The position numbers were made by a program, and so were the translations under genes. The notes beneath the pieces are model-generated. The model did no database searches. It was not told the origin of the DNA and worked only from the letters and a program-made list of their open reading frames with translations. This document shows positions 3,535-28,545 of a stretch of 64,000 nucleotides of DNA, piece after piece (position 1 is the first letter of the stretch; every line of letters starts with the position of its first letter). The stretch is from assembly GCF_000427405.1 (NCBI RefSeq), contig NZ_KE386491.1, positions 1,471,001 to 1,535,000 on the forward strand, in the 5' to 3' direction. The stretch is from Flectobacillus major DSM 103 (GTDB lineage: Bacteria > Bacteroidota > Bacteroidia > Cytophagales > Spirosomataceae).

Positions 3535-3626
3535 GATTTTGAGTTAAGTACAGTACAAAAGGGGTAATAGATTTTTAAAAACCAGCGTTTGTGAATGTGT
3601 TGCTATCAACTTCAACTAAAAATATC

Positions 3627-4063: not shown

Positions 4064-4167
4064 TGGCATTTTAGCCAAAATCAAATATTTATACAAACTA
4101 ATTTTGGCCTTGTTTTTTGTGATTAACTGAAAGTTGATTTTCAACTTCAGAAAGTTAGTGCTTTCAT

Positions 4168-10523: not shown

Positions 10524-10775
10524 TAAATATTGATGATTTAGCTAGTAATATAAATCCGACATACGGGCGGTTGGTCGTTTGAACGTTGAAGTTCGGGATT
10601 TTTTTAGAGAAACTGAAAAAACTTTTCTTTAGTATATAAATTTATTACTGGGGTTGTTTAAATTTCTGTCACTAGCGAATTTACTAATCCGTAAATAGAG
10701 AATGAAGACATTAGCGTATGTTCAAAACAATTCTGAAGTACGTTTACGTAGCCTCATTAGGCAAGATAACCTAAC

Positions 10776-12122
10776 CTATTTTTTAGTAGTTGGATAAAGA
10801 TATACTTCTACTCTTCGATTTAAGCCTTTTTCTGTTTCGTTGTTATTGTTGGCTATAGGCTTTTTGCTTCCCATTGCTATTTTTTTGATTCGAGTTTCTG
10901 TAATTCCTTTAGCAAAAAAGGCATTTTGAACATACATCGCCCTTACTTCAGACAAATAGAGATTGGAATTATAATTACCTACATTATCGGTGTGTCCAAA
11001 AATTTCGATATTAAGATTTGGCTGAGCTGCAGCTTGTTGAATAATTTGATGTAAAATTATCTGAGATTCGGGTTTGAGCAAAAAGTTGCTTTGCTCAAAA
11101 TAGAGGATAAACTTTTGGGGTTCTGTGATAGTAGGAAGTGTGTCGAGGCTAGGTACTGATTCTACTACATATTGATTCATTCCTGCCGTAGCTTGAAATG
11201 TATGATAAACGGTATCTTGCCCAGTACATACTTTAACTTTATACCACTCATTGAGTTCTAATAGGCCATAATGTATTGGATGCTGCGATGGTATTTTGGT
11301 TGTTAAATCATTGCCAGAAGGAGAGAGTTTGGAAAGATATACTTCTGCTTTCGGCTGATTAGTACTGGTAATAGCATTAAAAAACACAGGTGTTTTTATC
11401 AATGAAATAGTGTCATGATGCGTCAGGTTGTCGAGTTTATCAATAATGAGATTACCATAAAAAGGTTGATAATTGGGCGAAGCCACTTCGACGGCCAAAA
11501 TATCATGTTCAGTAAATTGAATAGAGACCTCTTTTCTTTGTAAAGAAGTTTGGTATTCATATACTTTTCCAGTGTTGGTTTGAATCAGCCTAAAAGCCGC
11601 TTCAATAGGTTTATGCGTAATTCCGTCTACTGCGGTAAGGATATGCCTAATTGATTTACCTTTGGAAGTAATAGGTGTCTGTTCAACTTTCCCCGACTTG
11701 GTGGTAGATTGAGCAAACACCTTGTTACTTTGGTGCTCGATAAGCTTTACTAAAGGTATTATATAAAGGAGTTCGGAATACTTGAGGTTGTTAAGAGCTA
11801 AATTGATGCTAATGGTATGATAACCAGTAGCTTGTACTTTGAGGGTGATGCTCTGTGGTTTAGTTGCTATCAAAAACCAGCCATTTACCCCATTGTTGAT
11901 AGCTCGGCTCCACGTAGGACTTTCTGATGAAAGATATGCCCATTGGAGCGTAGCTACGATGGGCTGTTGGGTAGAGGCATCTATCACCAAGCCTTTTATT
12001 TGTATGTTGGTTGTATAATTTTGTCCTATAGCCAGTTTACTAATCAAAGAAAATATCAAGAAAAGAGGTATTTTCCTTAAATCAGCTTTCAACAACAGTA
12101 AGTGAGCAAAATACAATATCAT
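10776..12122 (-). CDS. OmpA-C peptidoglycan-binding protein with CNA/CarboxypepD-like N-terminus
   Basis: 448 residues. A hydrophobic N-terminal segment (about 15-33, ending AIGQ) acts as signal sequence; the annotated start gives a rather long n-region, so a start at a later codon is possible. Residues about 40-130 form a carboxypeptidase-regulatory-like domain (IKGLVIDASTQQPIVATLQW) and 160-240 a second similar region (ILTAVDGITHKPIEAAFRLI). The C-terminal 110 residues are an OmpA-C domain (IEIFGHTDNVGNYNSNLYLSEVRAMYVQNAFFAKGI ... NRRVEVYLYP) expected to bind peptidoglycan. It is the last gene of the eleven-gene cluster, 107 bp after the TPR gene, and probably anchors it to the cell wall. 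Confidence 0.82.
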   Translation of the reverse strand: MILYFAHLLLLKADLRKIPLFLIFSLISKLAIGQNYTTNIQIKGLVIDASTQQPIVATLQWAYLSSESPTWSRAINNGVNGWFLIATKPQSITLKVQATGYHTISINLALNNLKYSELLYIIPLVKLIEHQSNKVFAQSTTKSGKVEQTPITSKGKSIRHILTAVDGITHKPIEAAFRLIQTNTGKVYEYQTSLQRKEVSIQFTEHDILAVEVASPNYQPFYGNLIIDKLDNLTHHDTISLIKTPVFFNAITSTNQPKAEVYLSKLSPSGNDLTTKIPSQHPIHYGLLELNEWYKVKVCTGQDTVYHTFQATAGMNQYVVESVPSLDTLPTITEPQKFILYFEQSNFLLKPESQIILHQIIQQAAAQPNLNIEIFGHTDNVGNYNSNLYLSEVRAMYVQNAFFAKGITETRIKKIAMGSKKPIANNNNETEKGLNRRVEVYLYPTTKK

Positions 12123-12222
12123 ATAAATGTTTTTCTGATTAAAAGCCTTAATGTACTGAATATCAAAAAAATAGTATTTGAATATTCAGGCACAATGTCT
12201 AATAATCAGATAATTTTTGATT

Positions 12223-12244
12223 AGAACCTCTATTTAGAGGTTCT
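12223..12244 (-). terminator. Hairpin overlapping the stop codon of the TPR gene
   Basis: A 9-bp stem AGAACCTCT/AGAGGTTCT with a 4-base loop spans the last codons and the TAG stop of the TPR gene. It is followed on the minus strand by AATCAAAAATTATC, not a strong U-tract, so it may be an intra-operon processing or attenuation site before the OmpA gene. Confidence 0.45.
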
Positions 12245-15115
12245 TTTGATTAATTCTTTAAACTCTTTGGTACTTCTAAGTTTATTATCAATAACATTAA
12301 TGAGTTTATCTTTCTTGATAAAACTAGGGTCGATGGCTTTACTGGTTAGTAATTTTTCTAAAACCTTTAAGCCTTCAGGAATATTTGTACTTTGTATATA
12401 ATAACAAGCCAGTAAGTAATTCAATTCGGTGTTGTCGGGGTTGGTCTTTAGCGATGCGTTAATAATTTCGAGTGCTTTACCACTTTGACCATCAAATAGA
12501 TAGCAGGTGGCTAGGTCTCGGTAGATAGATACATCCAAATCTCCTGTTTTGTTGTCAATCGTACTAATAAAGGCATTGATGGCCTCATTGTATTTTTCGG
12601 ATTTAAACAAACTATAAGCTTTCATCCGATAAGCCTCGCTTATATTTTTTTTGAGCGTATCCAAATCTACTGAGTTTTGGAAAGCTTCGGCAGCCTGTAC
12701 AAATTGGTTTAAGTAAAATAAAGCAATCCCCTTGGCCATTTGTTTTTGGTAGGTATCGGGCCCTAGCAAAATGGTTTGGTTGAGGTCGGATAAGGCAAGG
12801 TCGCTTTTGCCAAGTTCATTGAATGTTAAGCCCCTATAGAAATATGCCTCCGAAAATTCATTATTTAGTTTGATAGCTGTAGTAAGTTCGAGGTTGGCTT
12901 CAGCAAAATATTTTTCTTGTACCATCGAAACCCCCAGATAGTGGTGCATATTGGCAAAAAACTCTTTTGAATAGCTTTTTTCGATACTTGATTTTGAGAT
13001 TTTGATTCTTTGAAAAATAACTATGGCATTTTTGAAATCCTGTAATTGCATTAAGGCTCGCCCTTCATACAATAAGGCATCAAAATAGTTTGATACAATG
13101 GTATTGGTTTTGTGGAAATCTTCGATACTCTCTTTGTAGTGTCCTAAGTTGTATTTAGATACGCCTCTTTTGTAGAAAGCATCATCATAGGCTTCGTTAT
13201 GAACAATTGCCGTGGTATAATTTTCGATGGCTTTGGTAAAGTTTTTCTCTACAAAATAACATTCACCGATTTTGTACCATGCCCTAGAGTTGGCAGGTAA
13301 TGTCAAAACACTATTGGTAAAATTGGTACGAGCCTCGTTGATGTCGCCATTGATTAAGGCTTTGTCGCCTGTAAGAAAAAATGTTTCAGAGCGGTCTCTG
13401 ATAATTTTGTATAAATCATCTTGGAGTTGTAGCTCTATTGCTTTGCCAAAGTCGAGTCCTGCTTCTTTATAATGTTGAAGATTGAATTGGGCATTTCCTC
13501 TATAATAATAAGCCAAAACAGCATTGGGATTGAGGGTAATATTTGCCGAATAATCAGAAATGGCTTTTTGCCATGCACTATTTTGGGTATGTAACGAAGC
13601 CCGTTCAAAGTAGTACTGAGGGTTTTTGGGGTCTAGCTCGACAGCCTTGTCGTAGTCATCAAAAGCCCCTTGGAGGTTATTGGTACGAATTTTCAAAGCA
13701 GCCCTTGTATTATAAATGGCAGCATTGTCTGGCTCGATACTCAGTACGCTTGTATAATCGGCAATGGCTTTGGGTATATTGTTTTGAGAAACATAGTATT
13801 CTGCTCTTGTCGATAAAGCACCAACATTTTGAAAATCAAGGTTGATGGATTCATTGAGGTCTTCAAGAATACTTTTAGGGGAATCGCCCAACTGGATAGC
13901 ACATTTGGCACGACCTAAAAAGTAATCGGAATTTGACTTGTCTTTTTTGATATAGTTATCGTATTTTTTTTTGAGTTCTTTGAAATTACCTGCCAGAAAC
14001 ATTTCGTCAGTTTCTGTTTTGATATTCAATTCTTTGTTGAGTTCTCGGATAGTTTCTTGGTACAAATAAGCCGAATCAGGTTTAATCCTAAAGGCTGATT
14101 GATATTGCTGAATAGACTTGTTATAGTCTCGTTTGCGTTGCCATAGTTTAGCTTCAGCAATGAACCGTAGATAGTTTTGTTCTTTTTGCTTCTGAGCTAA
14201 TCTTTCTTCTTCTTGCTTTTTTAGTTCTTGTTCTTTCAATATCTCACGTTTGGCAAGCGAAATTTGTTTTTTGATATAGAATGTTTTACCGTAATCGTCT
14301 TTATCTTTTTTGAGGGCTTCGAGATACGCCTGAATCGACAATTCAAATTCTTTGGATTTGAAGGCATCGTCGGCATCGGACAAATGACGTTGGAAGTCGG
14401 ATTGTTCTTTTTTTTGGTCGTCGTTCTGGGTAGTTTCGGCTTCGGTATTGCTGGCAATAGGCTCGTTAGATGTTTCAGTTTTGATAACAATATCATCTTT
14501 GCCATTTTCTTCCGAAGTATTTCCAAAGGCAACTCGGGTAATATTGGCTACCCATTTTTTGCCATTTTTGGTGATACGAAGCTCGGCCACACGCTGAGTT
14601 TTGCGATAAGGTATATTAATAGTTTTGTGTTTATTATTAAACAAACTTTCAAAATATACTTTGATATACATATAATTGCTTCCTTGTTTTACATTGGAAG
14701 TACTAATAATATTTAGGTCGATACTGTTTTCGGTACCTTTTGTGTACAGAATATCAAGGTTATTGAGGTATTTCTCAACGGTTAAATCATGGATATTGGC
14801 GTTGTTATAGTAATTAGGGTTGATGTCGTCCTCAAGAATAGTTTGATTATTGTAAAAAACCTGGATATTACTATTACCGTAACTATCCTTGATAGTGGCG
14901 AGCTTTTCGGCATCACCGATAGACTCATCGGTGATAAAGTTGAGCAAATCTTTATAGCCATTTTGTATTTTTCGTTGAGCTACAAGCTTGATTTCTTCAC
15001 TTTCTTTGAGGCTTAGCGTTTGGGCGTTTGCATTGTTCCATTGCAATAGCGAAAAAAGCCCCAAAATAGTAATAATATTGTATAGATATTTCATGATAAT
15101 GTCTTTATTGTTCAC
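12230..15115 (-). CDS. Large secreted TPR protein
   Basis: 961 residues. An N-terminal signal sequence (about 8-32, ending ANAQ) precedes a domain of about 165 residues (35-200) that is visibly related to the C-terminal half of the protein encoded just upstream: a helix with FxxFLNxI, then N-IQVxxxN, EKYLxxL, K-Y...I and TKNGKKW motifs in the same order. A charged coiled-coil stretch (about 290-320, QEEERLAQKQKEQ) and some 15-18 tetratricopeptide repeats fill the rest; examples are AIADYTSVLSIEPDNAAIYNTRAALK and AFDDYDKAVELDPKNPQYYFERASLH. No enzymatic motif was seen. It most likely scaffolds partners in the periplasm or on the outer membrane. A start at the second Met (codon 8) is equally possible. 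Confidence 0.85.
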   Translation of the reverse strand: MNNKDIIMKYLYNIITILGLFSLLQWNNANAQTLSLKESEEIKLVAQRKIQNGYKDLLNFITDESIGDAEKLATIKDSYGNSNIQVFYNNQTILEDDINPNYYNNANIHDLTVEKYLNNLDILYTKGTENSIDLNIISTSNVKQGSNYMYIKVYFESLFNNKHKTINIPYRKTQRVAELRITKNGKKWVANITRVAFGNTSEENGKDDIVIKTETSNEPIASNTEAETTQNDDQKKEQSDFQRHLSDADDAFKSKEFELSIQAYLEALKKDKDDYGKTFYIKKQISLAKREILKEQELKKQEEERLAQKQKEQNYLRFIAEAKLWQRKRDYNKSIQQYQSAFRIKPDSAYLYQETIRELNKELNIKTETDEMFLAGNFKELKKKYDNYIKKDKSNSDYFLGRAKCAIQLGDSPKSILEDLNESINLDFQNVGALSTRAEYYVSQNNIPKAIADYTSVLSIEPDNAAIYNTRAALKIRTNNLQGAFDDYDKAVELDPKNPQYYFERASLHTQNSAWQKAISDYSANITLNPNAVLAYYYRGNAQFNLQHYKEAGLDFGKAIELQLQDDLYKIIRDRSETFFLTGDKALINGDINEARTNFTNSVLTLPANSRAWYKIGECYFVEKNFTKAIENYTTAIVHNEAYDDAFYKRGVSKYNLGHYKESIEDFHKTNTIVSNYFDALLYEGRALMQLQDFKNAIVIFQRIKISKSSIEKSYSKEFFANMHHYLGVSMVQEKYFAEANLELTTAIKLNNEFSEAYFYRGLTFNELGKSDLALSDLNQTILLGPDTYQKQMAKGIALFYLNQFVQAAEAFQNSVDLDTLKKNISEAYRMKAYSLFKSEKYNEAINAFISTIDNKTGDLDVSIYRDLATCYLFDGQSGKALEIINASLKTNPDNTELNYLLACYYIQSTNIPEGLKVLEKLLTSKAIDPSFIKKDKLINVIDNKLRSTKEFKELIKRTSK

Positions 15116-15144
15116 AAAAAGAGACTAGTGAATTGGAGAAAAAA

Positions 15145-16251
15145 TTACTTTTGTTCAACAATCCCGATGTTGCCAAGAAAAACCTCCCATTGACTGTTTT
15201 CGTTGGCATCAATAATTTTTTTGTATGATTTTACCATAACTTTAACATCCTTTTTTACAATGTCGCTGTATTTGACATTTCCTTTTTTGTCATATCCCGA
15301 GAACCGTTGTTCTCCAGTGATTACCCCATAATAATTGCCATCTTTTTCTTGTTGTAGATTGCCAACATATTGAATGTCAGTCCAGTCTATTTTTACAGAA
15401 CTATAGGGCGAAAGTTTTAGTCTTTTCAGGTATTCCTCTATTTTTCGGGTTACTACCACTATATTGCCGTCGGGTTTTCGTAGTGAAACCTGTATTGTAG
15501 CATTGGGCGTAAATAGCTTGATAGCCTGTTCAATAGCCTTATCTTTTTCTTCCGAGCTAAGTTCTTTGTTGGCTATTAAGTTGAGAAACTCACTAAAGCC
15601 ATCTACTTTTAATTCAGCTTTTTTACGATAAGACTGGATTTCGGAAGGCGAAAGCGTAATTGTGCTAGGCAAAGCAGGCTCTGCTGTAGCTACTATATCA
15701 GCTTTTTCAATGATTTTCTTTTTGAGTATCTTGAGGTTATCAGCTAGTTCGTTGGGCGAAGCCAAAAACTTATGATTACCATTGACATACAAAATCAGTA
15801 GTAAATCCTTTTTATTTTCGGTTTGGCTATCATTGGTTTTGATTGTTTTGAAGTTGACGATGTCATTTGATTCGTAGGTAATATTGCAGCGTACTACATC
15901 AATAGCCTGCTTGTATACCAGAAGGTCGTATTTGCTGGTTAATTTGGGACTGTTTTTGAAATCATTGATAGCATTAGCTCTTTCTTCGGGTTCTTGGGCG
16001 AGTTCTTCGCCGAGAAGAATATTTCCTTTTCGGTTGATAATCAGTAGTATATTGCTTATTTTTTGAGTAAGAATATCAGATTCTTTCTCTTGGGTAAACT
16101 CAACTTCGCCATTATTGAAGTTGATAATATTACCTTTCAGTACCTGATTGTCTTTGGTATAGATATGGTCTTGGGCAAAAGTACTTGAGATACTCACCCC
16201 CCAACAACTTGTGAGCAACAATAGGATAATAATTAATGGATGCGTTTTCAT
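15145..16251 (-). CDS. Secreted protein of unknown function sharing a domain with the TPR neighbour
   Basis: 368 residues, signal peptide at about 1-26 (ends TFAQ). Residues 28-150 carry two short beta-rich units (DHIYTKDNQVLKGNIINFNN; YDLLVYKQAIDVVRCNITYE) in the style of secreted Bacteroidota proteins that begin with D-I/L-x-x-K-x-G. The C-terminal 170 residues (about 196-368) repeat the domain found at the N-terminus of the next gene product: FSEFLNLIAN, NATIQVSLRKPDGN, IEEYLKRLKL, VKIDWTDIQYV, and an ending of QWEVFLGNIGIVE. The TPR gene starts 29 bp downstream, so the two are in one operon and probably act together. No function is known to me. Confidence 0.75.
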   Translation of the reverse strand: MKTHPLIIILLLLTSCWGVSISSTFAQDHIYTKDNQVLKGNIINFNNGEVEFTQEKESDILTQKISNILLIINRKGNILLGEELAQEPEERANAINDFKNSPKLTSKYDLLVYKQAIDVVRCNITYESNDIVNFKTIKTNDSQTENKKDLLLILYVNGNHKFLASPNELADNLKILKKKIIEKADIVATAEPALPSTITLSPSEIQSYRKKAELKVDGFSEFLNLIANKELSSEEKDKAIEQAIKLFTPNATIQVSLRKPDGNIVVVTRKIEEYLKRLKLSPYSSVKIDWTDIQYVGNLQQEKDGNYYGVITGEQRFSGYDKKGNVKYSDIVKKDVKVMVKSYKKIIDANENSQWEVFLGNIGIVEQK

Positions 16252-16342
16252 ATTTTGTAACTGGTATTGTACGAAATAGCCGTTAAGTATTTGACTAGTA
16301 TAGTGTTGAAAAACTAATCACTTTTACATTACTTTCGAGGTA

Positions 16343-16987
16343 TTAGCGTTTTGTTTTACATTTTTTAATTTTGTTCTGGATACTGCTGTCGTCGATAAGG
16401 GCTTGTGCAACCAAGTACCAATCCAGAGCAGTTTGGTATTCGTCAAAGCCAAGGAATTTATCGCCTCTTTGTTTGGCCATATTGGCTATTTTGATGAATT
16501 TAGGGTTAAGGTTGGAGGTACTTCCTAGCGATATTCGAGCCTTTCTAAAAAACTCAATGGCCACATCTATTCGGTTGTTATTGAGGGCTATCTCGCCCTG
16601 TTCTAAGTAAAACGAAAACCCCTTATTAAGCTCCTGTTTAGGTTTTTGAATAATATTTTCGAGGTTATAATTTCCATCTTTTAGTTCTCCTTCATATAGC
16701 AGTGAGGTGTCAATTCTGGAATAGATAAAGGCATATCCTGAGGGTTGCCCGTTTTTCATCAAACCCGAATAAAGATACAACCTACTAATAGGGTAATACT
16801 CGTAATAGCCATCGATACTTCTTGTGCTAGTGCTACTTTGAGGCGTGTTACTAGCAGTCGAAGGAGTTGCTTTGGGTGTTTTTGGGCTAGCCTTCTGAAC
16901 CTTAATCTTATTAAATACGGGTACTTTTTGGCCAATTACCGCTAGGTAACAAAATAGTTGGATACTAATGAGTATAAGTTTTTTCAT
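16343..16987 (-). CDS. Small secreted protein with MORN-like and TPR-like segments
   Basis: 214 residues with a signal peptide at 1-19 (ends VIGQ), then a Thr/Ser/Pro-rich linker (35-60). A short stretch resembling a MORN repeat follows (YLYSGLMKNGQPSGYAFIYS). The C-terminal 90 residues contain two TPR-like helix pairs (EIALNNNRIDVAIEFFRKAR and FLGFDEYQTALDWYLVAQAL). It starts 11 bp after the Hsp70 gene, so it is cotranscribed although it is exported and the Hsp70 is cytosolic. I do not recognise a named family. Confidence 0.7.
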   Translation of the reverse strand: MKKLILISIQLFCYLAVIGQKVPVFNKIKVQKASPKTPKATPSTASNTPQSSTSTRSIDGYYEYYPISRLYLYSGLMKNGQPSGYAFIYSRIDTSLLYEGELKDGNYNLENIIQKPKQELNKGFSFYLEQGEIALNNNRIDVAIEFFRKARISLGSTSNLNPKFIKIANMAKQRGDKFLGFDEYQTALDWYLVAQALIDDSSIQNKIKKCKTKR

Positions 16988-16998
16988 ACGATTTGGTT

Positions 16999-18510
16999 CT
17001 AATCAACGACATTATTGATAAATAGAGAATCTAACAAAGTTTTTTGATGGGAGAAATCGTATTTTGCTTCAGAAGTACTATTGACAAAGCTAAATTTTAG
17101 CGGAGCTCCTGTATGGGTATTCAATACCTTGATACCGATAGTACCGTCTACTTTATTTTCGATTACTAATTCTATATGGCTTGCGTGCATCGCCAGATTG
17201 TTGTCGATAGTAATTATGCCTAATTTTTGTGTAAAATCCTTTCTGTCAAGGTATTGGCATAGTTCTAGTTCGGTGTTTTTTTGGCGTTTATCAAGTTGAA
17301 TAATACTTCGCCCAACTATAGGAAGCGGAATGTTTTTATGGACAACCAACTCTAGATCAGTTGAGTTTTTGGGGCGAATGGCTATGTTATAAGAACTTAC
17401 ATTTTTGAGGTCGAGGTTCGATTGCAACTTTCCTTTCCCACTGGTAAAGCTATTGGCATAAATAGCAGCCCCTTTAGATACACTCGTGAGGGGTTGATGA
17501 TAAATGATTTTTTGATAGCTAGGATTAATAATATTACTCCAGTATTGGTATAGCAATTTGCTATTACTAGCCCCACCAATAAGAATTATCTGGCTAATAT
17601 TAGCGATATGTAAGCCTAGTACTTTAAGGGTATCTTTAACGCAATCTTCAGTTTTTTTAATAATTTCAAGGGCAAACAGGTTGTATTCGGTAATATCAAA
17701 AAATACCCTAAAGAATCGGTTGTCGAAGTAAAACCACCGTTCTAGCCCTTTTCCTGTTTGATTCAAGATAATTTTGCTTTCTTCGGCCAAAGTTTTGAGT
17801 AAGTTATTGTTATAATAGGTGTCTTTTATGGCTATGCCAAAAGCCTGCTGATAAACACTTTTGATTTTGTTAATAATAATTTGGTCAAACTCTTCGCCAC
17901 CAATATCATTGATTCCTCCTTTGGCCACCACATGAATTTGTTCGTGGTTTTTGGTTAGTACCGATAAATCGAAAGTGCCGCCTCCGAGGTCATAAATCAA
18001 GATTAGCTCTTCACTAGAGGTTGTGTGTTCGTCCAAATAGTATAAAGCTGCAGCAATGGGTTCATCAAGCAGAGACGTTAGCTTTAGATTAGCAAGTTTG
18101 GCCGCTTCCATTACTGAGCGTCGTTGTAAGTCATTGTAATGCGATGGCACAGTTACTACGACTTTGTCGATGTCTTCATTGATAAAAAGTTTGGCATCAT
18201 ACATAACCTTTTTGAGCATAATTGCTGCCAGTGTTTCGCTAAATACTGGAATATTGCTTGCGGTGTACCCCAAAGGTACGTACGACCCAAAGTGTCGTTT
18301 AAAGAAAATATATAGGTTTTTATCAGGGTATGCCTGATAAATATTTTTGGCCAAGCTGCCAACAATAGCCTTTTCGTTATCTATGATAATTGCACTTGGT
18401 GTTGTTTCGGCATGTTTATCAAGATTATCGGGAATGATAATGGGAGTATTATCTTTTGTGAGTGTTGCTACTAATGTATTGCTTGAACCCAAATCTATGC
18501 CCAAATTCAT
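16999..18510 (-). CDS. Hsp70-like ATPase with shortened C-terminus
   Basis: 503 residues. The actin-fold ATPase is complete: phosphate-1 GIDLGSSNTLVA (4-15), connect-1 region LLDEPIAAALYYLDE (147-161), phosphate-2 IYDLGGGTFDLSVL (172-185), GGEEFDQ (204-210) and adenosine loop LIGGASNSKLLYQ (310-322). About 145 residues follow the ATPase, too few for a full substrate-binding domain with helical lid (DnaK is about 638), so it resembles lidless divergent Hsp70s. It overlaps the upstream two-TM gene by 4 bp (ATGA), which predicts translational coupling and physical partnership. No DnaJ or GrpE lies nearby, arguing for a dedicated role rather than general folding. Confidence 0.9.
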   Translation of the reverse strand: MNLGIDLGSSNTLVATLTKDNTPIIIPDNLDKHAETTPSAIIIDNEKAIVGSLAKNIYQAYPDKNLYIFFKRHFGSYVPLGYTASNIPVFSETLAAIMLKKVMYDAKLFINEDIDKVVVTVPSHYNDLQRRSVMEAAKLANLKLTSLLDEPIAAALYYLDEHTTSSEELILIYDLGGGTFDLSVLTKNHEQIHVVAKGGINDIGGEEFDQIIINKIKSVYQQAFGIAIKDTYYNNNLLKTLAEESKIILNQTGKGLERWFYFDNRFFRVFFDITEYNLFALEIIKKTEDCVKDTLKVLGLHIANISQIILIGGASNSKLLYQYWSNIINPSYQKIIYHQPLTSVSKGAAIYANSFTSGKGKLQSNLDLKNVSSYNIAIRPKNSTDLELVVHKNIPLPIVGRSIIQLDKRQKNTELELCQYLDRKDFTQKLGIITIDNNLAMHASHIELVIENKVDGTIGIKVLNTHTGAPLKFSFVNSTSEAKYDFSHQKTLLDSLFINNVVD

Positions 18511-20222: not shown

Positions 20223-20914
20223 AGTATATTGATTACGACTGTACGCATATAGTCTGTGTTACTTACTTCATTTACGACATCAGCTACAGTACGCTGAGTA
20301 TTTATTTTGAAAACCAGTTTGGTTTTACCAAATTGAAGGGTATCTCCTTCGTTAAGGGAATATTTACCTTGAAGCCTTTTATCGTTGCCATTTACAAATA
20401 CGCCGTTTTTTGAGGGTTTTTCTCCTATTTCACTTACATCATATAAAAAGTAAGCATTATCAATAATCTCAATAATAGCATGTTTTCGACTCACAAACAT
20501 ATCGTGTTCGATACTTACGTCGAGTTTTTTGCCTTCGGTAGCCCGCCCAATAGTATTGAGCCCTTGCTTGAGGGTAAAGGCAATAGACGTACTGTTTTCT
20601 GTATGCCTAATCAGCCAAGCTGGCTCTTGAATTACCGACTGGGTTTCGTTTGACGAATTATTACTTACCTCGGGCCAATCTAATTCGGGCTTAATGACAG
20701 GTGTGTCAAAATTTTGGCTAGGACGGAGCAAGAAAGTCTTAAATTCCGCGAGTTTTTCTATATTTTTTTCATATACCTTTTTTAATAGGCTGGTTGGTGC
20801 GTTATTGACTAAGCTTTTGAAGTATTTTTCTTTTTCAGCAACAGCTTTTACCAGTTCGTCATCAGGAGTACCCGATGATAGCGACAAAAATTCTATTATT
20901 TCATTTCGGTTCAT
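20219..20914 (-). CDS. FHA-domain phosphothreonine-binding protein
   Basis: 231 residues, cytosolic. Residues 1-65 are helical with a conserved-looking start (EIIEFLSLSSGTPDDELVKAV). An acidic/Ser-rich linker follows, then a C-terminal FHA domain at about 100-206 with all binding-loop residues: Gly123-Arg124, Ser142-Arg143-Lys144-His145, and Asn170-Gly171 with VFVNG to 176. It should bind phosphothreonine peptides, most simply those made by the kinase encoded at 25741-27606 and removed by the PP2C at 27637. It overlaps the two-TM gene by 4 bp and follows the second repeat protein gene by 118 bp. Confidence 0.92.
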   Translation of the reverse strand: MNRNEIIEFLSLSSGTPDDELVKAVAEKEKYFKSLVNNAPTSLLKKVYEKNIEKLAEFKTFLLRPSQNFDTPVIKPELDWPEVSNNSSNETQSVIQEPAWLIRHTENSTSIAFTLKQGLNTIGRATEGKKLDVSIEHDMFVSRKHAIIEIIDNAYFLYDVSEIGEKPSKNGVFVNGNDKRLQGKYSLNEGDTLQFGKTKLVFKINTQRTVADVVNEVSNTDYMRTVVINIL

Positions 20915-21032
20915 AAGACTTTTATATAAATAGGTAGTTAAAAATCTGCTAAACAGTAGTCTGTGTTACGAATTTGAAATTTAGCTCCTCTTTTGAAAAT
21001 CAATTATTGGATGATTGAACGCCTTTTGTGTT

Positions 21033-23309
21033 TTAAAATAAGCTATCTCTAGCGGCTCTTTTTTGGGCATTGCAGCGATGAGCACGCTCCTTCGAGTCTT
21101 CTGCAGCATTGGCAAAAGCTTCAGCATTAGAAAGTCTGATACTAGCCTCATATTCAAGGTCGTTTGCTTTATGAAGTTTATGGAGAGCCTTATCAGCCAA
21201 TTCCGACGACCTTTTATAATATTTTTCTGTTTCGTCTTTGAATTGTTCGGCTCGGGTCATTTGAGGTAAGGCTTCATCGGCATATTCACGAGCTAAATTT
21301 TCATCAGCCTTGGCGTTATTTTTGGCTGTTTGAGTTTCTTTGGCTGCTGTTTGAGCTTTATTTTTGATACCTTCAGTTTCGACAGCTTCGGCTTCAGCTT
21401 TATTTTTGGCTCGTTCAGATTGTTGTCGTTCAGCTTCGGCAATAAATCTATTTTTATCGGCCTGCATAGCAAAACTTTGAGCGGCAATGCGGTATTGGTC
21501 GGCCTCCAGAGCATCGTTTACGGCATCTTGCCTAGCTTTATCAGCTTCTTTGGCAGCAATAATGGTAGTGTTTTTGAGCTGCTCGGTTGTTGAGGCATCC
21601 GCTTTAACATCATTTTTCAGATTCTCGGTTTCGTTGGCTTGTTCCTTTGTTCTGTTTTTGTACTGTTCTATTTCTTTTTGGTCTTTCAATACCTCATTTT
21701 TTATTTTTTCAGCCTCATTGGCAAAAGCTTTAACTTGATTTTTTATTTGTTCAACTTCAGTAGCATCTTTTTTAATTTCAGCCTTTATCTGTTCGGTTTC
21801 GTTGGCATCTGCACGAGCCTCATTTTTGTGAATATCAGCTTCTTTGGCATCGTCTTTGGCTTGATTTTTGGCTTGTTCGGCCTCGTTGGCATCAGCCTTA
21901 GCGTCATTTTTAGCTTGTTCGGCCTCATTGGCATCGGTTTTTGCCTCATTTTTAAGCTGTTCAGCCTCTTGGGCATCAGCCAAAGCCTGATTTTTGACTA
22001 GTTCAATTTCAGCAGCATCCGCTTTTGTCTCATTTTTGGCTTGTTCGGTTTCGATGGCATCAGCCTTAGCCTGATTTTTAGCTTGCTCAGTTTCAATAGC
22101 ATCAGCCTTGGCCTCGTTTTTGGCTTGTTCGGTTTCAGTTGCCTCTGCTTTCGCCTGATTTTTCGCCTGTTCGATTTCGTTAGCGTCAGTTTTTGCTTGA
22201 TTTTTGGCTTGTTCGGTTTCTAGAGCGTCGGCTTTAGCGTCATTTTTGCTTTGTTCGGTTTCGTTAGCGTTAGTTTTCGCCTGATTTTTGGCTTGTTCAA
22301 TTTCTAGGGCATCGGCCTTTGCATCACTTTTAGCTTGCTTGGTATCTTGAGCATCGGTTTTTGCCTGATTTTTGGCCTGTTCTGTTTCAGTAGCCAAACT
22401 TTTTGTTTGAGTTTTCGTTTGCTCTATTTCATTGGCATCGGTTTTCGCACCATTTTTTATTTGTTCAGTTTCCTGAGCATCGGCTTTCGCTTGATTTTTA
22501 ATCTGTTCAGCCTCTTGAGCATCACTTTGAGCTTGTGATTTAGCTTGTTTAGTTTCTAGAGCGTCGGCTTTTGTTTGATTTTTAGCTTGTTCAGCTTCCA
22601 AAGCATCGGCCTTGGTTTGATTTTTGACTTGTTCAGTCTCCAAGGCATCGGCCTTGGTTTGCTCCTTCATCATTTCTATCTCAGAAGCATCCGATTTGGT
22701 TTGGTTTTTTACTTGTTCGGTCTCTTGAGCGTCGGTTTTCGCCTGATTCTTGGCCTGTTCAGCTTCCTGAGCATCAGTCTTTGCCTGATTTTTGGTTTGT
22801 TCAGTTTCCTGAGCATCTGTTTTCGCCTGATTTTTGATTTGCTCGGCTTCGTTGGCATCAGCCACCGAGCCACTTTTGGCTAATTCAGCTTCTTGAGCGT
22901 CGGCTTTAGACGTATTTTTAAGCATCTCACTTTCGTTGGCCAGTGTTAAAGCCGTATTGAGTGAGGCTTCTGTTTCGGTGGTATAAGCTTTGATACTATT
23001 TTTCAGTTCTTCGGCCTCGATACTATCAGAACGGACTTGATTTTTGAAACTCTCGACTTCTTGCCTAGCTGCAACACCCATTTGTTTAGCTGTAGCTATC
23101 TGTTGGCGGTCGGCGATAGATTCCTGTTTGGCCATTTCAGTGTTTTGTGCAAAGTCCTTCGCTATAAGGCTTGACTGTTTTATTTGGCCAAGAATACTAT
23201 TAATATCGGTAGGCGTATAGTCTATGGCATTTTGGGAAATATCATTTTCTATATCTATCAATTGCTGATAGATAGCCTTGGCTTCGATTAATATGGTTGC
23301 TAGATTCAT
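21033..23309 (-). CDS. 758-residue 14-mer repeat coiled-coil protein, second copy
   Basis: Unique N-terminus (1-55, helical, MNLATILIEAKAIYQQLIDI), then by my count 44 consecutive 14-residue units (56-671) of consensus E-T/A-E-Q-x-K-N-Q-A-K-A/T-D-A-x, then a unique 87-residue tail ending AQKRAARDSLF. No signal peptide or TM. Alanines recur with 3-4-4-3 spacing within each unit, which fits a long coiled coil with small core residues. Compared with its neighbour the units are more diverged, with T/I/V at the second position and a degenerate first six and last eight units. Total length equals the neighbour exactly. Only 29 bp separate the two genes. A cytosolic filament, ruler or scaffold is the likely role; no function is known. 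Confidence 0.85.
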   Translation of the reverse strand: MNLATILIEAKAIYQQLIDIENDISQNAIDYTPTDINSILGQIKQSSLIAKDFAQNTEMAKQESIADRQQIATAKQMGVAARQEVESFKNQVRSDSIEAEELKNSIKAYTTETEASLNTALTLANESEMLKNTSKADAQEAELAKSGSVADANEAEQIKNQAKTDAQETEQTKNQAKTDAQEAEQAKNQAKTDAQETEQVKNQTKSDASEIEMMKEQTKADALETEQVKNQTKADALEAEQAKNQTKADALETKQAKSQAQSDAQEAEQIKNQAKADAQETEQIKNGAKTDANEIEQTKTQTKSLATETEQAKNQAKTDAQDTKQAKSDAKADALEIEQAKNQAKTNANETEQSKNDAKADALETEQAKNQAKTDANEIEQAKNQAKAEATETEQAKNEAKADAIETEQAKNQAKADAIETEQAKNETKADAAEIELVKNQALADAQEAEQLKNEAKTDANEAEQAKNDAKADANEAEQAKNQAKDDAKEADIHKNEARADANETEQIKAEIKKDATEVEQIKNQVKAFANEAEKIKNEVLKDQKEIEQYKNRTKEQANETENLKNDVKADASTTEQLKNTTIIAAKEADKARQDAVNDALEADQYRIAAQSFAMQADKNRFIAEAERQQSERAKNKAEAEAVETEGIKNKAQTAAKETQTAKNNAKADENLAREYADEALPQMTRAEQFKDETEKYYKRSSELADKALHKLHKANDLEYEASIRLSNAEAFANAAEDSKERAHRCNAQKRAARDSLF
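21297..23144 (-). repeat. 42-bp coding tandem repeat, about 44 units, diverged
   Basis: In-frame 42-bp units encoding the 14-residue repeats of the second copy. Units drift in both sequence and codon choice, especially toward 21297 and 23144, which suggests an older array than the one at 23549-25396. Confidence 0.85.
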
Positions 23310-23338
23310 TTTTAAATCTAAAATGTTAAGTACATTGA

Positions 23339-25615
23339 TTAGAAACCGCTACAAGCATGAAGAGCACAATTGTCAGCTTTGTGCATGTAGTCTTCGGCTT
23401 GTTGAGCCATCTGCCTCACTTTATCTTCTAGGCCATCTATAACTTTGAGATGAGTACTAATTTTGTCAGAATCAGCCTCAATATTTCTCAATGTGCTGTA
23501 AGCTGTATTTTTGTGCATCAAAGTAGCATCTGCAAAACTGAAGGCCTGTTGAGCATAAGACCTAGCCTGTTCTTTAGACATTTCGGCTTCTGAGGCATCT
23601 TGTTGAGCTTGAGCTTTGGCATTTTCGGTTTCGTTAGCATCGGCTTCAGTTTGTTTTTTAGCAGCTTCAGCAGCATTTGCATCTGAATCGGCATCTTGCC
23701 TAGCTTTTTCAGCAGCTTTAGCGTCAGCCTCGGCATCCTGTCGAGCTATATCGGCAGCCTTGGCATCATCTACAGCCGCATTTTTGGCATTTTCGGCATC
23801 AATAGCATCGGCTTTAGCAGCGTTTTTAGCAACCTCAGTTTCTTCAGCATCGGCTTTGGCTTGATTTTTGATTTGTTCGGCTTCATTAGCATCAGCTTTC
23901 GCCTGATTTTTGATTTGTTCAGCCTCAGCAGCATCAGCTTTTGCCTCATTTTTAGCCTGTTCTGTTTCATTGGCATCAGCCTTGGCTTCATTCTTGGCAT
24001 TTTCGGCCTCGGTAGCATCGGCTTTTACCTCATTTTTGGCTTGTTCAGCCTCGGCGGCATCAGCTTTAGCCTCATTTTTGGCCTGTTCAGCTTCTTGGGC
24101 ATCAGCTTTAGCGTCATTTTTGGCCTGTTCGGCTTCAATAGCATCGGCCTTAGCATCATTTTTGGCTTGTTCAGCCTCAGCGGCATCAGCCTTGGCCTGA
24201 TTTTTGGCCTGTTCAGTTTCGTTGGCATCGGCTTTGGCCTGATTTTTGGCCTGTTCAGCTTCCTGAGCATCAGCTTTGGCCTGATTTTTAGCCTGTTCAG
24301 CTTCCGAGGCATCGGCTTTAGCCTCATTTTTGGCCTGCTCGGTTTCATTAGCATCGGCTTTAGCGTCATTTTTAGCTTGCTCAGCCTCCTGAGCATCAGC
24401 CTTCGCCTGATTTTTGGCTTGTTCGGCCTCATTGGCATCAGCCTTAGCGTCATTTTTGGCTTGTTCAGCCTCTTGAGCATCAGCTTTAGCGTCGTTTTTA
24501 GCTTGTTCAGCTTCTTGGGCATCAGCTTTAGCGTCATTTTTGGCCTGTTCAGCCTCTTGGGCATCGGTTTTTGCCTGGTTTTTAGCTTGTTCAGCTTCTT
24601 GGGCATCAGCTTTAGCGTCATTTTTGGCTTGTTCAGCTTCTTGGGCATCAGCTTTAGCGTCATTTTTGGCTTGTTCGGCCTCTTGGGCATCAGCTTTGGC
24701 CTGCCCTTTAATATTTTCTACCTCGTTAGCATCGGTTTTAGCGTCATTTTTGGCTTGTTCGGCCTCCTGAGCATCGGCTTTAGCTTGCGTTTTGGCTTGT
24801 TCAGCTTCTTGGGCATCAGCTTTAGCCTCATTTTTAGCCTGTTCAGCTTCTTGGGCATCAGTTTTCGCCTGATTTTTGGCTTGTTCAGCTTCCTGAGCAT
24901 CAGCCTTAGTTTGATTTTTGGCTTGTTCGGCTTCGGCGGCATCAGCTTTGGCCTGATTTTTGGCTTGTTCAGCCTCGTTAGCATCAGCTTTAGCTTGCGT
25001 TTTGGCTTGTTCAGCTTCTTGGGCATCAGTCTTAGTCTGATTTTTGGCCTGTTCGGCTTCCTGAGCATCGGCTTTAGCTTGGTTTTTAGCATTTTCAGCT
25101 TCCGAGGCATCAGCTTTAGCATTATTTTTAGCCTGTTCGGCCTCTTGGGCATCGGCTTTAGCCTGAACTTTAGCCTGTTCAGCTTCGGCGGCATCAGCTT
25201 TGGCCTGATTTTTGGCTTGTTCGGCCTCCTGAGCATCGGCTTTCGCTTGATTTTTGGCTTGTTCGGCCTCTGTGGCATCCGTTTTCACCTGATTTTTTAG
25301 CTGCTCTACTTCCATAGTGTCAGCTTTGACATCATTCTTAGTTTGTTCAATTTGCTGAGAATCGGCAATAGCTTCTTGCTTCATTTGCTCAATCATCTGA
25401 CCGTCGCTTTTAGCATCGAGGGCCGATTGACGAGCTATATCAGAACTACTTTTTGCTTCTATTAAATAGCCATTCAATGTGCTTTCTTGAATGGTAATGG
25501 TATCAATCAATTGGTTTTGTTGTGCCAATAAGGTATTGATTCTATCACGTACACTAACTGAATGATGAAGAATTAACTGTAATTCTTCTAACATTTGCGT
25601 TTCTGTCATGCTCAT
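23339..25615 (-). CDS. 758-residue 14-mer repeat coiled-coil protein, first copy
   Basis: N-terminal helical segment 1-73 (MSMTETQMLEELQLILHHSV), then 44 units of 14 residues by my count (74-689) with consensus EAEQAKNQAKADAQ, then a 69-residue tail ending CALHACSGF. No signal peptide, TM or enzyme motif. The units are nearly uniform; variation is mostly Q/D/E at position 8 and Q/N/A at position 14. Alanine content is extreme and charges alternate, so a very long, highly soluble coiled coil is expected: 616 residues as one helix would be about 90 nm. It lies 125 bp after the kinase gene and 29 bp before its paralogue. It could superficially be mistaken for a LEA-like protein, but the period is 14 rather than 11. 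Confidence 0.85.
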   Translation of the reverse strand: MSMTETQMLEELQLILHHSVSVRDRINTLLAQQNQLIDTITIQESTLNGYLIEAKSSSDIARQSALDAKSDGQMIEQMKQEAIADSQQIEQTKNDVKADTMEVEQLKNQVKTDATEAEQAKNQAKADAQEAEQAKNQAKADAAEAEQAKVQAKADAQEAEQAKNNAKADASEAENAKNQAKADAQEAEQAKNQTKTDAQEAEQAKTQAKADANEAEQAKNQAKADAAEAEQAKNQTKADAQEAEQAKNQAKTDAQEAEQAKNEAKADAQEAEQAKTQAKADAQEAEQAKNDAKTDANEVENIKGQAKADAQEAEQAKNDAKADAQEAEQAKNDAKADAQEAEQAKNQAKTDAQEAEQAKNDAKADAQEAEQAKNDAKADAQEAEQAKNDAKADANEAEQAKNQAKADAQEAEQAKNDAKADANETEQAKNEAKADASEAEQAKNQAKADAQEAEQAKNQAKADANETEQAKNQAKADAAEAEQAKNDAKADAIEAEQAKNDAKADAQEAEQAKNEAKADAAEAEQAKNEVKADATEAENAKNEAKADANETEQAKNEAKADAAEAEQIKNQAKADANEAEQIKNQAKADAEETEVAKNAAKADAIDAENAKNAAVDDAKAADIARQDAEADAKAAEKARQDADSDANAAEAAKKQTEADANETENAKAQAQQDASEAEMSKEQARSYAQQAFSFADATLMHKNTAYSTLRNIEADSDKISTHLKVIDGLEDKVRQMAQQAEDYMHKADNCALHACSGF
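23549..25396 (-). repeat. 42-bp coding tandem repeat, about 44 units, homogeneous
   Basis: In-frame 42-bp units encoding the 14-residue repeats of the first copy. Several adjacent units differ by only a few bases (for example around 24500-24700), so the array should be prone to slippage or recombination and to assembly error with short reads. Confidence 0.9.
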
Positions 25616-25740
25616 GTTTGTAAAATTTGGAGGTAGTAAAGAATCTTGTCAATAAATTAGATTAAGTTGTTGTAAATCAAAGGTTTGTTTTGTGGTTTTT
25701 ATGGTCTCTATTTTTTATTGAATATCAAGTAGAGCTGGTT

Positions 25741-27606
25741 TTAATTGTGCATACTTTCTACTTGACTTTTGGCAGCATTTGAAGCATCGACGTTATCGTT
25801 TTTTTGAATTACCTTATAAAACCAATCGAGTGCTTTTTGTTTATCTTGTTTGATACCAGCCCCATTGAGATATGCCAGCCCAAGTGAATACATGGCTACT
25901 GAATTACCCTGAGCGGCGGCTTTTTGGTAAAATCCTAAAGCTTTTGTGAAGTTTTGAGAAACCCCAAGTCCCATGAAGTGAATATTGCCAAGCATGGTTA
26001 CTGCCCGATTATCGGTCGGGATTTTTTCAAAGATGTGTTTGGCTTTTTGATAGTCTTGTTCTACAAATTTGCCCGTATAGTACAGTTGTCCCAATAGATA
26101 CGCATTGCCGATTGAACCCCACTCAAGCTCTTGCTTTAAAAAAGGAATTGCAGCCGAGGTATCACCTTTGCTAATAAGTGTTTGTACTAGGTATTGTGTA
26201 TCAAGTGAATCCTTTCTTTGGCTGGGTGCTTGAGTTTTGTCGTTGAGCAAGGTCAACGCTTGGTCGTATTGATGTTGCTCAAGGAGTGAATCTATTTTGG
26301 CATAGAAGTTTTGTGTAAGCATATTCCAAACGTAATACCCACCACCTAAAGCAACAATAAGGCTGATAAATGCGATGTTTCGGATTTTTGTATTGGCACT
26401 TTTCTTCTGGTTTGTTGAGTGGTTGGGCTTTTCGGCTTCTTGCAACAACGGCTTTTCTCTTGGTGGTATTATAGGTGTTTCTTTAGCTACAGGAGAAGAG
26501 CTTATGGCTTGATTTTCAAGGGTTTTGTCGGATACAATGCTATCATTACCAACAGGCGGGCTATCGGAGGGTAGTACTTCTGTATGGGGTGTTTTTGCCA
26601 AATGAAATGTATGAGTATTGGCGTTATCCATATTATGGAGTTGATTGGTACTATCAGTTTTGTCAGATATAAGAGTAGGAGGCAGTGTTGTTGTTGGGTT
26701 ATTTTTTTCTTCAAAATTAATAAACTGTGTTTCAAAGGCATCGACAGCAGGAATACTTGTATAGCTAGCATCTAGGAAAGGTATCAAATCTTTGGCACTT
26801 TGGACACGTAATTTAGCATCGGACACAAGGCATTTTTTGATAACTGTTTTGAACGGTTCTTCTATTGAGTTTAGCTTCTGTGGAAGTTCGGCTGATAAAA
26901 TCGAGTTCATAATTTGTTCGGCCGTAGTATTCCCACTTCGTTGCCCAAAAGGAGGCTCTGTTGCTAGTAATTCATAAAGCATAATACCAAAGCTCCACAA
27001 ATCTACATTTGTCGATATTTTGCCATTGATACCATATTTGGCAGGGCTAAATTGCTCGGGAGCCATGTATTCGATTGTACCGATAGTCATGGAGGCACTA
27101 TTGGTATTGGCCTCCATATTGCGACTAATACCAAAGTCCGAAATTTTAGCAATTAGCTTTGAGCCATCGTTAACGAGTAAAATATTTTGAGGTTTTAGGT
27201 CACGATGAACAATACTTTTTTGATGAAGAAAATCAAGACCATAAAGCACCTGTTTGAGCAAGTCGATAATTACAGAAGGCTTAGGATCGCCTTGTACAAA
27301 TGTTTTTAGGTCGCCTGCATTGGCAAGTTCCATAATACCAATCTGGAGTTCCTCTTTTTCACCAAAAGCATTGATATTTTGAAGCAAGGCTACATCATAA
27401 TAACGTAACAAATTAGGATGCTCAAATCTAATAACCTTTTTGATTTCTTCTAATACTGTATAATGTCCATTGTCTACTTTGTTGAAAACCTTGATGGCCA
27501 CGGTTCTATCTAAGAGGATATCCTGTGCTTTGTAAACACGGGCAAATCCACCTCTGCCTATCAAATCCTCACGAGGATTATATATGTATCTACTTTTAAA
27601 ATCCAT
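25741..27606 (-). CDS. Membrane Ser/Thr protein kinase with extracytoplasmic Sel1 repeats
   Basis: 621 residues. An intact Hanks-type kinase spans 10-280: glycine loop GRGGFARV (17-24), Lys39 (VAIKVF), Glu53 or 54, HRD at 134-136 with DLKPQN, DFG at 157-159, and APE at 182-184. A Ser/Thr/Pro-rich juxtamembrane region (300-405) probably carries autophosphorylation sites. One TM helix lies at about 409-428, and an external part (430-621) has TPR-like then Sel1-type repeats (about 498-603; GNIHFMGLGVSQNFTKALGFYQKAA, AMYSLGLAYLNGAGIKQDKQKALDWF). The outside repeats may sense or dock a periplasmic partner. It follows the PP2C gene by 30 bp. The FHA protein four genes on is the likely reader. Confidence 0.95.
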   Translation of the reverse strand: MDFKSRYIYNPREDLIGRGGFARVYKAQDILLDRTVAIKVFNKVDNGHYTVLEEIKKVIRFEHPNLLRYYDVALLQNINAFGEKEELQIGIMELANAGDLKTFVQGDPKPSVIIDLLKQVLYGLDFLHQKSIVHRDLKPQNILLVNDGSKLIAKISDFGISRNMEANTNSASMTIGTIEYMAPEQFSPAKYGINGKISTNVDLWSFGIMLYELLATEPPFGQRSGNTTAEQIMNSILSAELPQKLNSIEEPFKTVIKKCLVSDAKLRVQSAKDLIPFLDASYTSIPAVDAFETQFINFEEKNNPTTTLPPTLISDKTDSTNQLHNMDNANTHTFHLAKTPHTEVLPSDSPPVGNDSIVSDKTLENQAISSSPVAKETPIIPPREKPLLQEAEKPNHSTNQKKSANTKIRNIAFISLIVALGGGYYVWNMLTQNFYAKIDSLLEQHQYDQALTLLNDKTQAPSQRKDSLDTQYLVQTLISKGDTSAAIPFLKQELEWGSIGNAYLLGQLYYTGKFVEQDYQKAKHIFEKIPTDNRAVTMLGNIHFMGLGVSQNFTKALGFYQKAAAQGNSVAMYSLGLAYLNGAGIKQDKQKALDWFYKVIQKNDNVDASNAAKSQVESMHN

Positions 27607-27636
27607 TGGAACTAAATAATTATGAATCGTTGTATG

Positions 27637-28545
27637 TTAGTGGTTTTTGGTAGAATCTACTGCTGGGGGGATAATGGTAGGGATATCTACCGATATACGT
27701 TTATTTTGAGGCGTAGGTGGTATTTTAGGGTTTTGTGTTTTGGTAAACTGCCATATTCCCAATCCAACCAGTATTATTAAACCCATGATAATTTTGGGCA
27801 AAAAATTTGATTTAGTAGCCTCAAACTGCAACAAGTGCATAGAATAATTATCACGTGTGTAGTTTTGGCAGTACTCGTTGATTAAATAACCTTTATTAGG
27901 TTCTGGATTTTGGGCTATTTGAGGTAGTAAGGATGTACTTACTTTTTCAAAAATACCATCCGATGCCAATAGTAAATAATCATTTGGCTCTATTGAATCA
28001 ATCACATGAAAGTCAAAATCGTTGGTGGTTGTTTGTAGGTTGATACACCTCGTAATTAGGTTTCGTTGAGGATGTGTACTGGCTTCTTCTAAGCTTATTT
28101 GATTGATATTGACTAAATGCTGGACAAAACTGTGGTCGAGGCTTTTCCATTTTATACCTTTTTCATTGAAGTGTACAATTTTACTATCACCACACCATGC
28201 TACTATAATTTCACGTTTATTGATACACGCTAGTGTTAGGGTTGTACTCATATTTTCAGCCTCAGGAAAATCTTCAATAAATAGCTTGAATCTGAGAAGG
28301 CTAGCGTCTAAAGCTGCCAAAATATCTTCTTTTGTGATATTTGTTAAATGAGAGAGCATCTTGCCAAATGTTTCTGCTACAATTTTGCTAGCTTCTTCAC
28401 CTTTGGCTTCTCCTCCAACGCCATCACATACTACAAATACTTTTGTTTTTGTATTTACATCGTTCAAATTAGGGTAAATATAGTCTTCGATACTTGACCT
28501 TTTACCAGCATCTAACAAGCTGAAAACTTTAGAAATTTGAAACAT
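27637..28545 (-). CDS. Membrane-anchored PP2C-type Ser/Thr phosphatase
   Basis: 302 residues. PPM metal ligands and motifs are all visible: Glu20-Asp21 (SIEDY), Asp41-Gly42 (VVCDGVGGEAKGEEAS), Gly119-Asp120 (AWCGDSK), Asp196-Gly197 (LLASDGIFE) and Asp232-Asn233 (TRDNYS). After the catalytic domain (1-240) comes one hydrophobic helix at about 249-266 and a short Pro-rich tail outside (270-302), which is unusual for the soluble PppA/Stp class. It is the first gene of the cluster and lies 30 bp before the kinase gene, so it most likely reverses that kinase. The upstream 554-bp gap should carry the cluster's main promoter. Confidence 0.95.
   Translation of the reverse strand: MFQISKVFSLLDAGKRSSIEDYIYPNLNDVNTKTKVFVVCDGVGGEAKGEEASKIVAETFGKMLSHLTNITKEDILAALDASLLRFKLFIEDFPEAENMSTTLTLACINKREIIVAWCGDSKIVHFNEKGIKWKSLDHSFVQHLVNINQISLEEASTHPQRNLITRCINLQTTTNDFDFHVIDSIEPNDYLLLASDGIFEKVSTSLLPQIAQNPEPNKGYLINEYCQNYTRDNYSMHLLQFEATKSNFLPKIIMGLIILVGLGIWQFTKTQNPKIPPTPQNKRISVDIPTIIPPAVDSTKNH

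Follow-up and report, generated by a model that had tools for sequence, protein, structure and literature searches.

An eleven-gene cluster of Flectobacillus major DSM 103 is a conserved unit, and this unit consists of exactly the eleven genes. Our best explanation, held tentatively and at slightly less than an even chance, is an accessory apparatus across the cell envelope, in which a phosphorylation switch (proteins J, K and G) and an envelope module (C, A and B) are related to the T6SSiii of Bacteroidota and the core (I, H, F and E) comprises no contractile injector. The like of this core was not found elsewhere in the genomes searched. From the sequence alone it had been concluded that no named system has such a composition; this stands for the core and is only half right for the whole, because the kinds of switch proteins and of exported proteins C, A and B occur in or beside T6SSiii loci.

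Organization and conservation of the cluster

The cluster spans positions 10776-28545 of the window, i.e. the whole stretch of 64,000 nucleotides that was analysed, and all eleven genes lie on the minus strand. Open reading frames, lengths and strand agree with the sequence-only reading, as does the tight spacing, which ranges from -4 to 125 bp (K to J, 30; J to I, 125; I to H, 29; H to G, 118; G to F, -4; F to E, -4; E to D, 11; D to C, 91; C to B, 29; B to A, 107). A hairpin occupies 12223-12244, where B ends. The genes are the following:

27637..28545, minus strand: K, PP2C-type Ser/Thr phosphatase, PppA-like, with one C-terminal transmembrane segment at 246-264 (Pfam PP2C_2, 6.7e-10)
25741..27606, minus strand: J, Hanks-type kinase, PpkA-like, with a weak transmembrane stretch and Sel1 repeats (Pfam Pkinase, 5.2e-52; Sel1, 8.5e-23)
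23339..25615, minus strand: I, alanine-rich 14-residue repeat protein of 758 aa (orthologues in L008 and L009, see below)
21033..23309, minus strand: H, second 14-residue repeat protein of 758 aa, its repeats more diverged (orthologues in L008 and L009)
20219..20914, minus strand: G, FHA protein with an N-terminal domain (1-62), the FHA domain and a Y-x-x-T-V tail (Pfam FHA, 2.7e-14)
18507..20222, minus strand: F, membrane protein with an alpha/beta part (~41-177), a helical part, two transmembrane segments and a long C-terminal helix
16999..18510, minus strand: E, Hsp70 of 503 aa, ATPase domain and short C-terminal part (Pfam HSP70, 1.6e-50)
16343..16987, minus strand: D, exported protein of 214 aa (hydrophobic N-terminus; kept in L008 and L009)
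15145..16251, minus strand: C, exported protein of 368 aa (hydrophobic N-terminus; profile search)
12230..15115, minus strand: B, exported TPR protein of 961 aa (Pfam TPR_2, 9.8e-48)
10776..12122, minus strand: A, exported protein with an OmpA-C domain of the peptidoglycan-binding type (Pfam OmpA, 4.2e-19)

The domains recognised by Pfam (all eleven proteins scanned) and NCBIfam (ten, H being left out) are OmpA-C in A, TPR in B, HSP70 in E, FHA in G, kinase and Sel1 in J and PP2C in K. Pfam gave nothing significant for C, F, H or I, nor did NCBIfam for C, F or I. Simple hydropathy places two transmembrane segments in F (375-393 and 435-453) and one in K (246-264), together with hydrophobic N-termini in B, C and D; the signal of A and the transmembrane stretch of J score under the threshold of this method. 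The six domain assignments proposed from the sequence are confirmed, and the two membrane segments of F and the coexistence of a writer, an eraser and a reader of threonine phosphorylation (kinase J, PP2C K and FHA protein G) are supported. The predicted distribution of the gene products across the envelope is supported as well.

The full set of eleven genes is found again, in unchanged order, in F. longus (locus L008) and in Flectobacillus sp. BAB-3569 (locus L009), with orthologues 40-76% identical depending on the protein; frame breaks affect the kinase and Hsp70 genes of L009. None of the open reading frames flanking the cluster in the window, L008 or L009 matches a flanking frame of another, and the block thus occupies three gene neighbourhoods in three species. 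The recurrence of the genes in order across these neighbourhoods argues for one real unit, as had been proposed, and scattering of the genes in relatives, the outcome named against that proposal, was looked for in Flectobacillus and was not seen. Between the LysR and M1-peptidase genes, where the window has the cluster, three genomes of the genus (G001, G002 and G003) have four different genes, so that in G001 and G003 the cluster lies elsewhere. The sensor kinase and LytTR regulator encoded at 29100-32890 of the window are neighbours of the cluster in neither L008 nor L009.

The gene for F is present in 3 of the 5 Flectobacillus genomes and in none of the 394 other genomes of the phylum sample, and a contig search for F returned only two Flectobacillus loci and none outside the genus.

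The phosphorylation switch

Kinase J, phosphatase K and FHA protein G resemble the T6SS threonine phosphorylation pathway (PpkA, PppA and Fha; PMC3953482), which likewise combines a kinase with a PP2C and an FHA protein. Like the kinase of that pathway, J may have a transmembrane segment and an extracytoplasmic part, its candidate segment scoring under the hydropathy threshold. That pathway serves an injector, whereas the cluster has no injector gene. FHA proteins, kinases and Hsp70 are unmentioned in the T6SSiii paper (Bongiovanni et al. 2024, PMC10781749). None of the titles listed by our literature searches concerns the cluster, and these searches found no paper on FHA domains or a threonine phosphorylation pathway in the T6SSiii of Bacteroidota.

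The FHA and PP2C searches covered 32 genomes, five of Flectobacillus and 27 others of the family. The latter were picked mostly for C or tssC matches, 22 of them having tssC, and the counts that follow are not independent because the genomes were hand-picked and many are closely related. Outside the genus, the FHA profile gave ten strong matches in eight genomes (two further weak rows of the twelve, E 9.5e-6 and 4.2e-5, are not counted among them), and for eight of the ten tssC is no more than 18 kb away. Of the remaining two, the first adjoins relatives of C and A, 67 kb from tssC; the second adjoins PP2C and kinase genes on a contig where no tssC was found. The source genome has 13 first-look FHA candidates, and G alone scored with the profile. 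As for the phosphatase, which matches the NCBIfam Stp1 model at 3.8e-40, yet under that model's cut-off, the 14 strongest matches outside the genus comprise eight within 19 kb of tssC, three adjoining tssK-like genes and three in kinase or FHA modules with no nearby sheath gene; the position of one of them (L098) was taken from the PP2C search since an overlapping frame hides its open reading frame.

The closest relatives of the switch were met in G091, a relative at the level of the class. There the FHA, kinase and PP2C genes are grouped at one end of a T6SSiii-like locus that also carries tssC-, B-, H-, K-, N-, E-, F-, G- and vgrG-like genes (gene names in L129 and L130 were given by blastp to landmarks of L070 and L047). 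The FHA protein aligns with G over its full length at 34% identity, the kinase shares 46% of 327 aligned positions with J and the PP2C is 34% identical to K, each being the best match among 831 open reading frames of 53 loci outside the genus. All three switch proteins of the cluster are homologous to copies in T6SS loci, and common ancestry of this three-gene switch with those of T6SSiii is well supported by these sequence comparisons.

A PP2C tree of 30 rows (L123, from G004, left out) is consistent with a T6SSiii ancestry of K without being decisive. The superclade in which it places K takes in every one of the nine T6SS-linked rows, three rows from modules and six whose context is unknown, and the Flectobacillus clade sits on a long branch outside the T6SS-linked rows. 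The tree was rejected as proof of descent, since it supports the superclade and not the nesting.

At its N-terminus, G differs from seven FHA proteins of the family that were compared with it and that belong to T6SS loci or to modules; their cysteine-containing N-termini look zinc-ribbon-like by inspection. G shares its N-terminal domain with the T6SSiii FHA protein of G091. A search with residues 1-62 alone across 395 genomes of the phylum gave, beyond the genus, a single clear match (G091, E 5.2e-8) and three weak ones. At the C-terminus, an aromatic residue, two residues and T-[VI] are found in 11 of 11 FHA rows (genus, T6SS loci and modules, and G091).

The linker between the kinase and Sel1 parts of J holds T-x-hydrophobic-hydrophobic motifs, and the Sel1 repeats come after the hydrophobic stretch. 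The linkers of seven kinases contain 19 such T-x-phi-phi motifs against 3.9 in shuffled sequences, for a motif that was chosen post hoc from these sequences and with one kinase having none and some rows being near-copies. The threonines of the G tail and of the J linker could be phosphothreonine ligands of the FHA domain, which makes self-binding of the tail and docking of the kinase candidate events. These motifs offer testable candidate phosphosites in Bacteroidota.

The exported proteins

The C-terminal domain of C is widespread in the order, as the profile of C matches in 108 of 291 genomes. In 20 loci selected from these matches, C is accompanied by A and B in 13 and by B in 4, and stands alone in 3. 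Residues ~80-448 of A have blastp matches to OmpA-C proteins of T6SS loci, with a sub-threshold carboxypeptidase-regulatory-like match ahead of the OmpA-C domain, and the N-terminal part of B is related to short B-like proteins of T6SS loci (blastp; L042-L048 and others). D gave only a sub-threshold TPR match. No clear fold emerged for C: its model is poor (mean pLDDT 47.7) and an NTF2-like match is weak (Z up to 8.1).

In the family of the source organism, which we take to be the Spirosoma family, 16 of 33 tssC places have, among the matches listed, a gene for a C-domain protein no more than 25 kb away, against an expectation of 0.3 under uniform placement, three of these 16 being domain-only proteins of ~220 aa and close species not being independent. 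The other 17 places have none within that distance among the matches listed, and outside the family 1 of 24 places has one, again among the matches listed. The input consisted of the 57 tssC places listed (one a 27-residue fragment) and, among the matches listed, 56 C-profile places, namely the strong ones and those in tssC genomes, second pieces of the same protein or place being omitted.

Individual loci illustrate the association. In L047, the C-A-B trio is flanked by a gene for a ClpB-type ATPase and by PAAR, TssC, TssD and VgrG-type genes, the types of all five being recognised by Pfam. L044/L070 and L045/L071 each have a T6SSiii locus adjoining FHA, PP2C and kinase genes as well as the trio. 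Pfam identified TssN and gp25 in L070 and, sub-threshold, TssO and TssF, the tssC model placing TssC at the same location; further landmarks of that locus we take, from position and resemblance, to be TssK, TssG, TssB and TssH. The source genome itself has a second C/B cluster (L040), with no T6SS genes. The trio is found in many T6SSiii loci, though also elsewhere. In this family, C-A-B is a candidate for an envelope component of such loci.

Search for an injector

As tested by its defining feature, the sheath gene tssC, the cluster is not a T6SS. The gene was found in 0 of 8 genomes, including the five of Flectobacillus (G000-G004), in a search whose own positive control was silent; the same model was positive in 46 of 291 genomes of the order. 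Neither Pfam, in the eleven cluster proteins, nor NCBIfam, in ten of them, gave a match to TssB, D, E, F, G, H, I or K, a result to be read with the possibility that models suited to this phylum are lacking for TssK and TssG, as Pfam left the corresponding genes of L070 unmatched too. Of the membrane complex TssNQOPR, TssN and TssO had no Pfam match in the cluster at E 0.1, and the T6SSiii paper, in the part consulted, has TssO, Q and R often escaping detection (PMC10781749).

Compared with T6SSiii as described there, the cluster is alike in that relatives of K, J, G, C, A and B stand in or beside such loci (PMC10781749); T6SSiii has genes for ClpV, sheath, tube and baseplate, whereas the cluster has none of these and has the Hsp70, F, H and I instead. 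It represents an instance of T6SSiii-linked parts kept where the sheath gene was not found.

The core proteins

The Hsp70 had been described as lidless and indeed E covers the HSP70 profile up to position 402 of 599, the full lid being absent. Although 145 of 148 genomes of the order, its own included, match an Hsp70 search, no relative of E of like length or score was seen among the matches listed from the 147 others: the best score outside the genus was 129 bits against 1078, and none of the matches listed, in frames of at least 535 aa, extends past residue 387.

The AF2 model of F is poor overall (mean pLDDT 45.7), with moderate confidence in the alpha/beta part. In this poor model, residues ~41-177 resemble receiver domains (VIA-align, Z 11.2, rmsd 3.6, 125 aligned) and also CENP-M (Z 9.4). 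F may possibly have a degenerate nucleotide-binding fold such as that of a GTPase. A dynamin-like nature of F was considered, which would call for a GTPase domain with a P-loop; no P-loop was seen in the three sequences and Pfam gave no GTPase match.

The description of H and I as two 758-residue proteins of 14-residue repeats agrees with their lengths and with a count of repeat intervals. In I, E.xK sites are spaced exactly 14 residues apart in 39 of 40 intervals, and 14 is the commonest interval in H. No signal peptide or transmembrane segment was seen in either by hydropathy. Judged from the 14-residue alanine-rich repeats, each is plausibly a long helical rod, a single helix of this length measuring ~110 nm (758 x 0.15 nm, by arithmetic). 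A filamentous or conflict-related nature of the apparatus, as put forward from the sequence alone, is a possibility.

The N-terminus of I had one marginal match (E 8.8e-4) in 290 other genomes of the order, and a PDB sequence search of F and H gave no match. D, F, H and I matched none of the 831 open reading frames of the 53 loci outside the genus, T6SS loci included, and E matched none except in loci fetched as Hsp70 matches. An origin from phage tail fibres or tape measures was considered and set aside, H and I having no PHROG match and those of F (E 0.018 and 0.097) being not significant.

Alternative explanations

An intracellular coiled-coil cytoskeleton for cell shape or filaments is an unlikely though serious alternative, in which rods of H and I would be tethered by F, tuned by kinase and phosphatase and linked to the wall through OmpA. 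Crescentin and other coiled-coil cytoskeletons, the model for such an account, are long cytosolic coiled-coil proteins, and the two 758-aa, 14-residue-period, alanine-rich proteins, with neither signal peptide nor transmembrane segment seen, are similarly long, coiled-coil and cytosolic; the OmpA-C protein lies in the same cluster. Their 14-residue alanine-rich repeat, accessory distribution and phospho-switch nonetheless set the cluster apart from crescentin-type systems. The presence of F in three of five genomes of the genus, in differing neighbourhoods, is unlike a core shape determinant, and the type of control module is one linked to T6SS.

Less probable still is a conflict system for defence or self-killing, whose switch would sense envelope attack or phage and trigger a harmful or protective polymer. 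Patchy presence and differing locations would fit, and the NTP-dependent conflict systems, in the part of their description considered (Kaur et al. 2020, PMC7159879), include Hsp70 proteins, some with no peptide-binding domain, and in some cases a kinase and a PP2C, as in the cluster. Those systems are built on a MoxR-vWA or GTPase core, whereas Pfam found no GTPase, MoxR, vWA or effector domain in the cluster, which has an envelope anchor instead, and no toxin domain was recognised. PADLOC, run on ten proteins (H left out), returned only kinase, PP2C and OmpA/MotB matches, the best being mad6 (2.6e-65), which spans the kinase domain; a known defence system was rejected on this result.

We consider it quite improbable that the cluster is a leftover or split T6SS, its control and anchor genes serving an injector that has diverged and is encoded at another place of the genome. 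T6SSiii genes are often spread over several loci, according to the portion of the T6SSiii paper used (PMC10781749), and both the triad and the trio are of T6SS type; against this stand the failure to find tssC in G000-G004, with a model that is productive in the order, and the retention of F, E, H and I with the module in three species. The chance adjacency of two or three unrelated units could be argued from four junctions spaced at 91-125 bp and from the hairpin of B, but it is strongly disfavoured by a gene order that is constant across three neighbourhoods, and we hold it to be highly improbable.

Proposed working

For the preferred accessory trans-envelope apparatus, we infer the flow of the signal, the assembly of rods and the purpose, which may be a structural response to envelope damage or contact. 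The Sel1 part of the kinase, taken to be extracytoplasmic, would face the exported proteins C, B, D and A and sense the state of the envelope, and A would be fixed to peptidoglycan through its OmpA domain. Once active, J would phosphorylate threonines of its own linker and of the Y-x-x-T-V tail of G, upon which the FHA domain of G may change partner and recruit or release F. Together with the lidless Hsp70 E, F would then control the assembly of H and I into cytosolic rods at the inner membrane, and the PP2C K would reset the switch.

A bolder proposal, which we rate as rather unlikely, is a sheathless machine in which the Hsp70 and F would load two ~100-nm alanine-coil rods onto the inner membrane in replacement of sheath, tube and ClpV, a T6SSiii switch and wall anchor having been captured. 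We know of no description of such an envelope machine.

The findings suggest that a T6SS-type phospho-switch and an OmpA-type envelope anchor are reusable modules, separable from the injector. The cluster is compact enough for deletion or transfer as a whole.

Envelope genes at T6SSiii loci

Within the family to which F. major belongs, relatives of the exported envelope trio C-A-B, that is, of the 368-aa protein, the OmpA-C protein and the TPR protein, occur within or close to some loci of the Bacteroidota type VI secretion system, T6SSiii (L042-L048, L055/L088, L086 and L087). According to a 2024 study (Bongiovanni et al., PMC10781749), T6SSiii without membrane-complex parts concentrate in Spirosoma, Hymenobacter and Flavobacterium. 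The C-A-B proteins may be the injector's alternative envelope parts.

Another C/B cluster, without T6SS genes, lies in the same F. major genome (L040, G000:C6:1171500-1191400, at 8395-15532); by our reading, it also carries genes for a putative lipoprotein of vWA-like type and a putative outer-membrane beta protein.

Further observations

The relatives' loci L079, L080 and L100 are FHA/PP2C/kinase modules, some with PKD genes or genes read as caspase-like and with no sheath gene (tssC) nearby, and are possible further uses of this phospho-switch.

In the Flectobacillus sp. BAB-3569 copy of the cluster (L009), the kinase frame (3248-4891) is disrupted and ends early, and that of the Hsp70 (about 11710-13220) is disrupted with its N-terminus out of frame; decay or an assembly error could account for both.

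Three among the best outside matches listed for the lidless Hsp70 E (L061, L063, L066) are Hsp70s of 632-835 aa, and ahead of each stands a small gene (103-131 aa).

Other elements lie in the window:
12223-12244, where gene B ends, a perfect 9-bp hairpin with a run of T after it on the + strand
44890-46890, 666-aa protein beyond the cluster, OmpA-C-like match to A
47277-49295, adjacent 672-aa protein, likewise matching A
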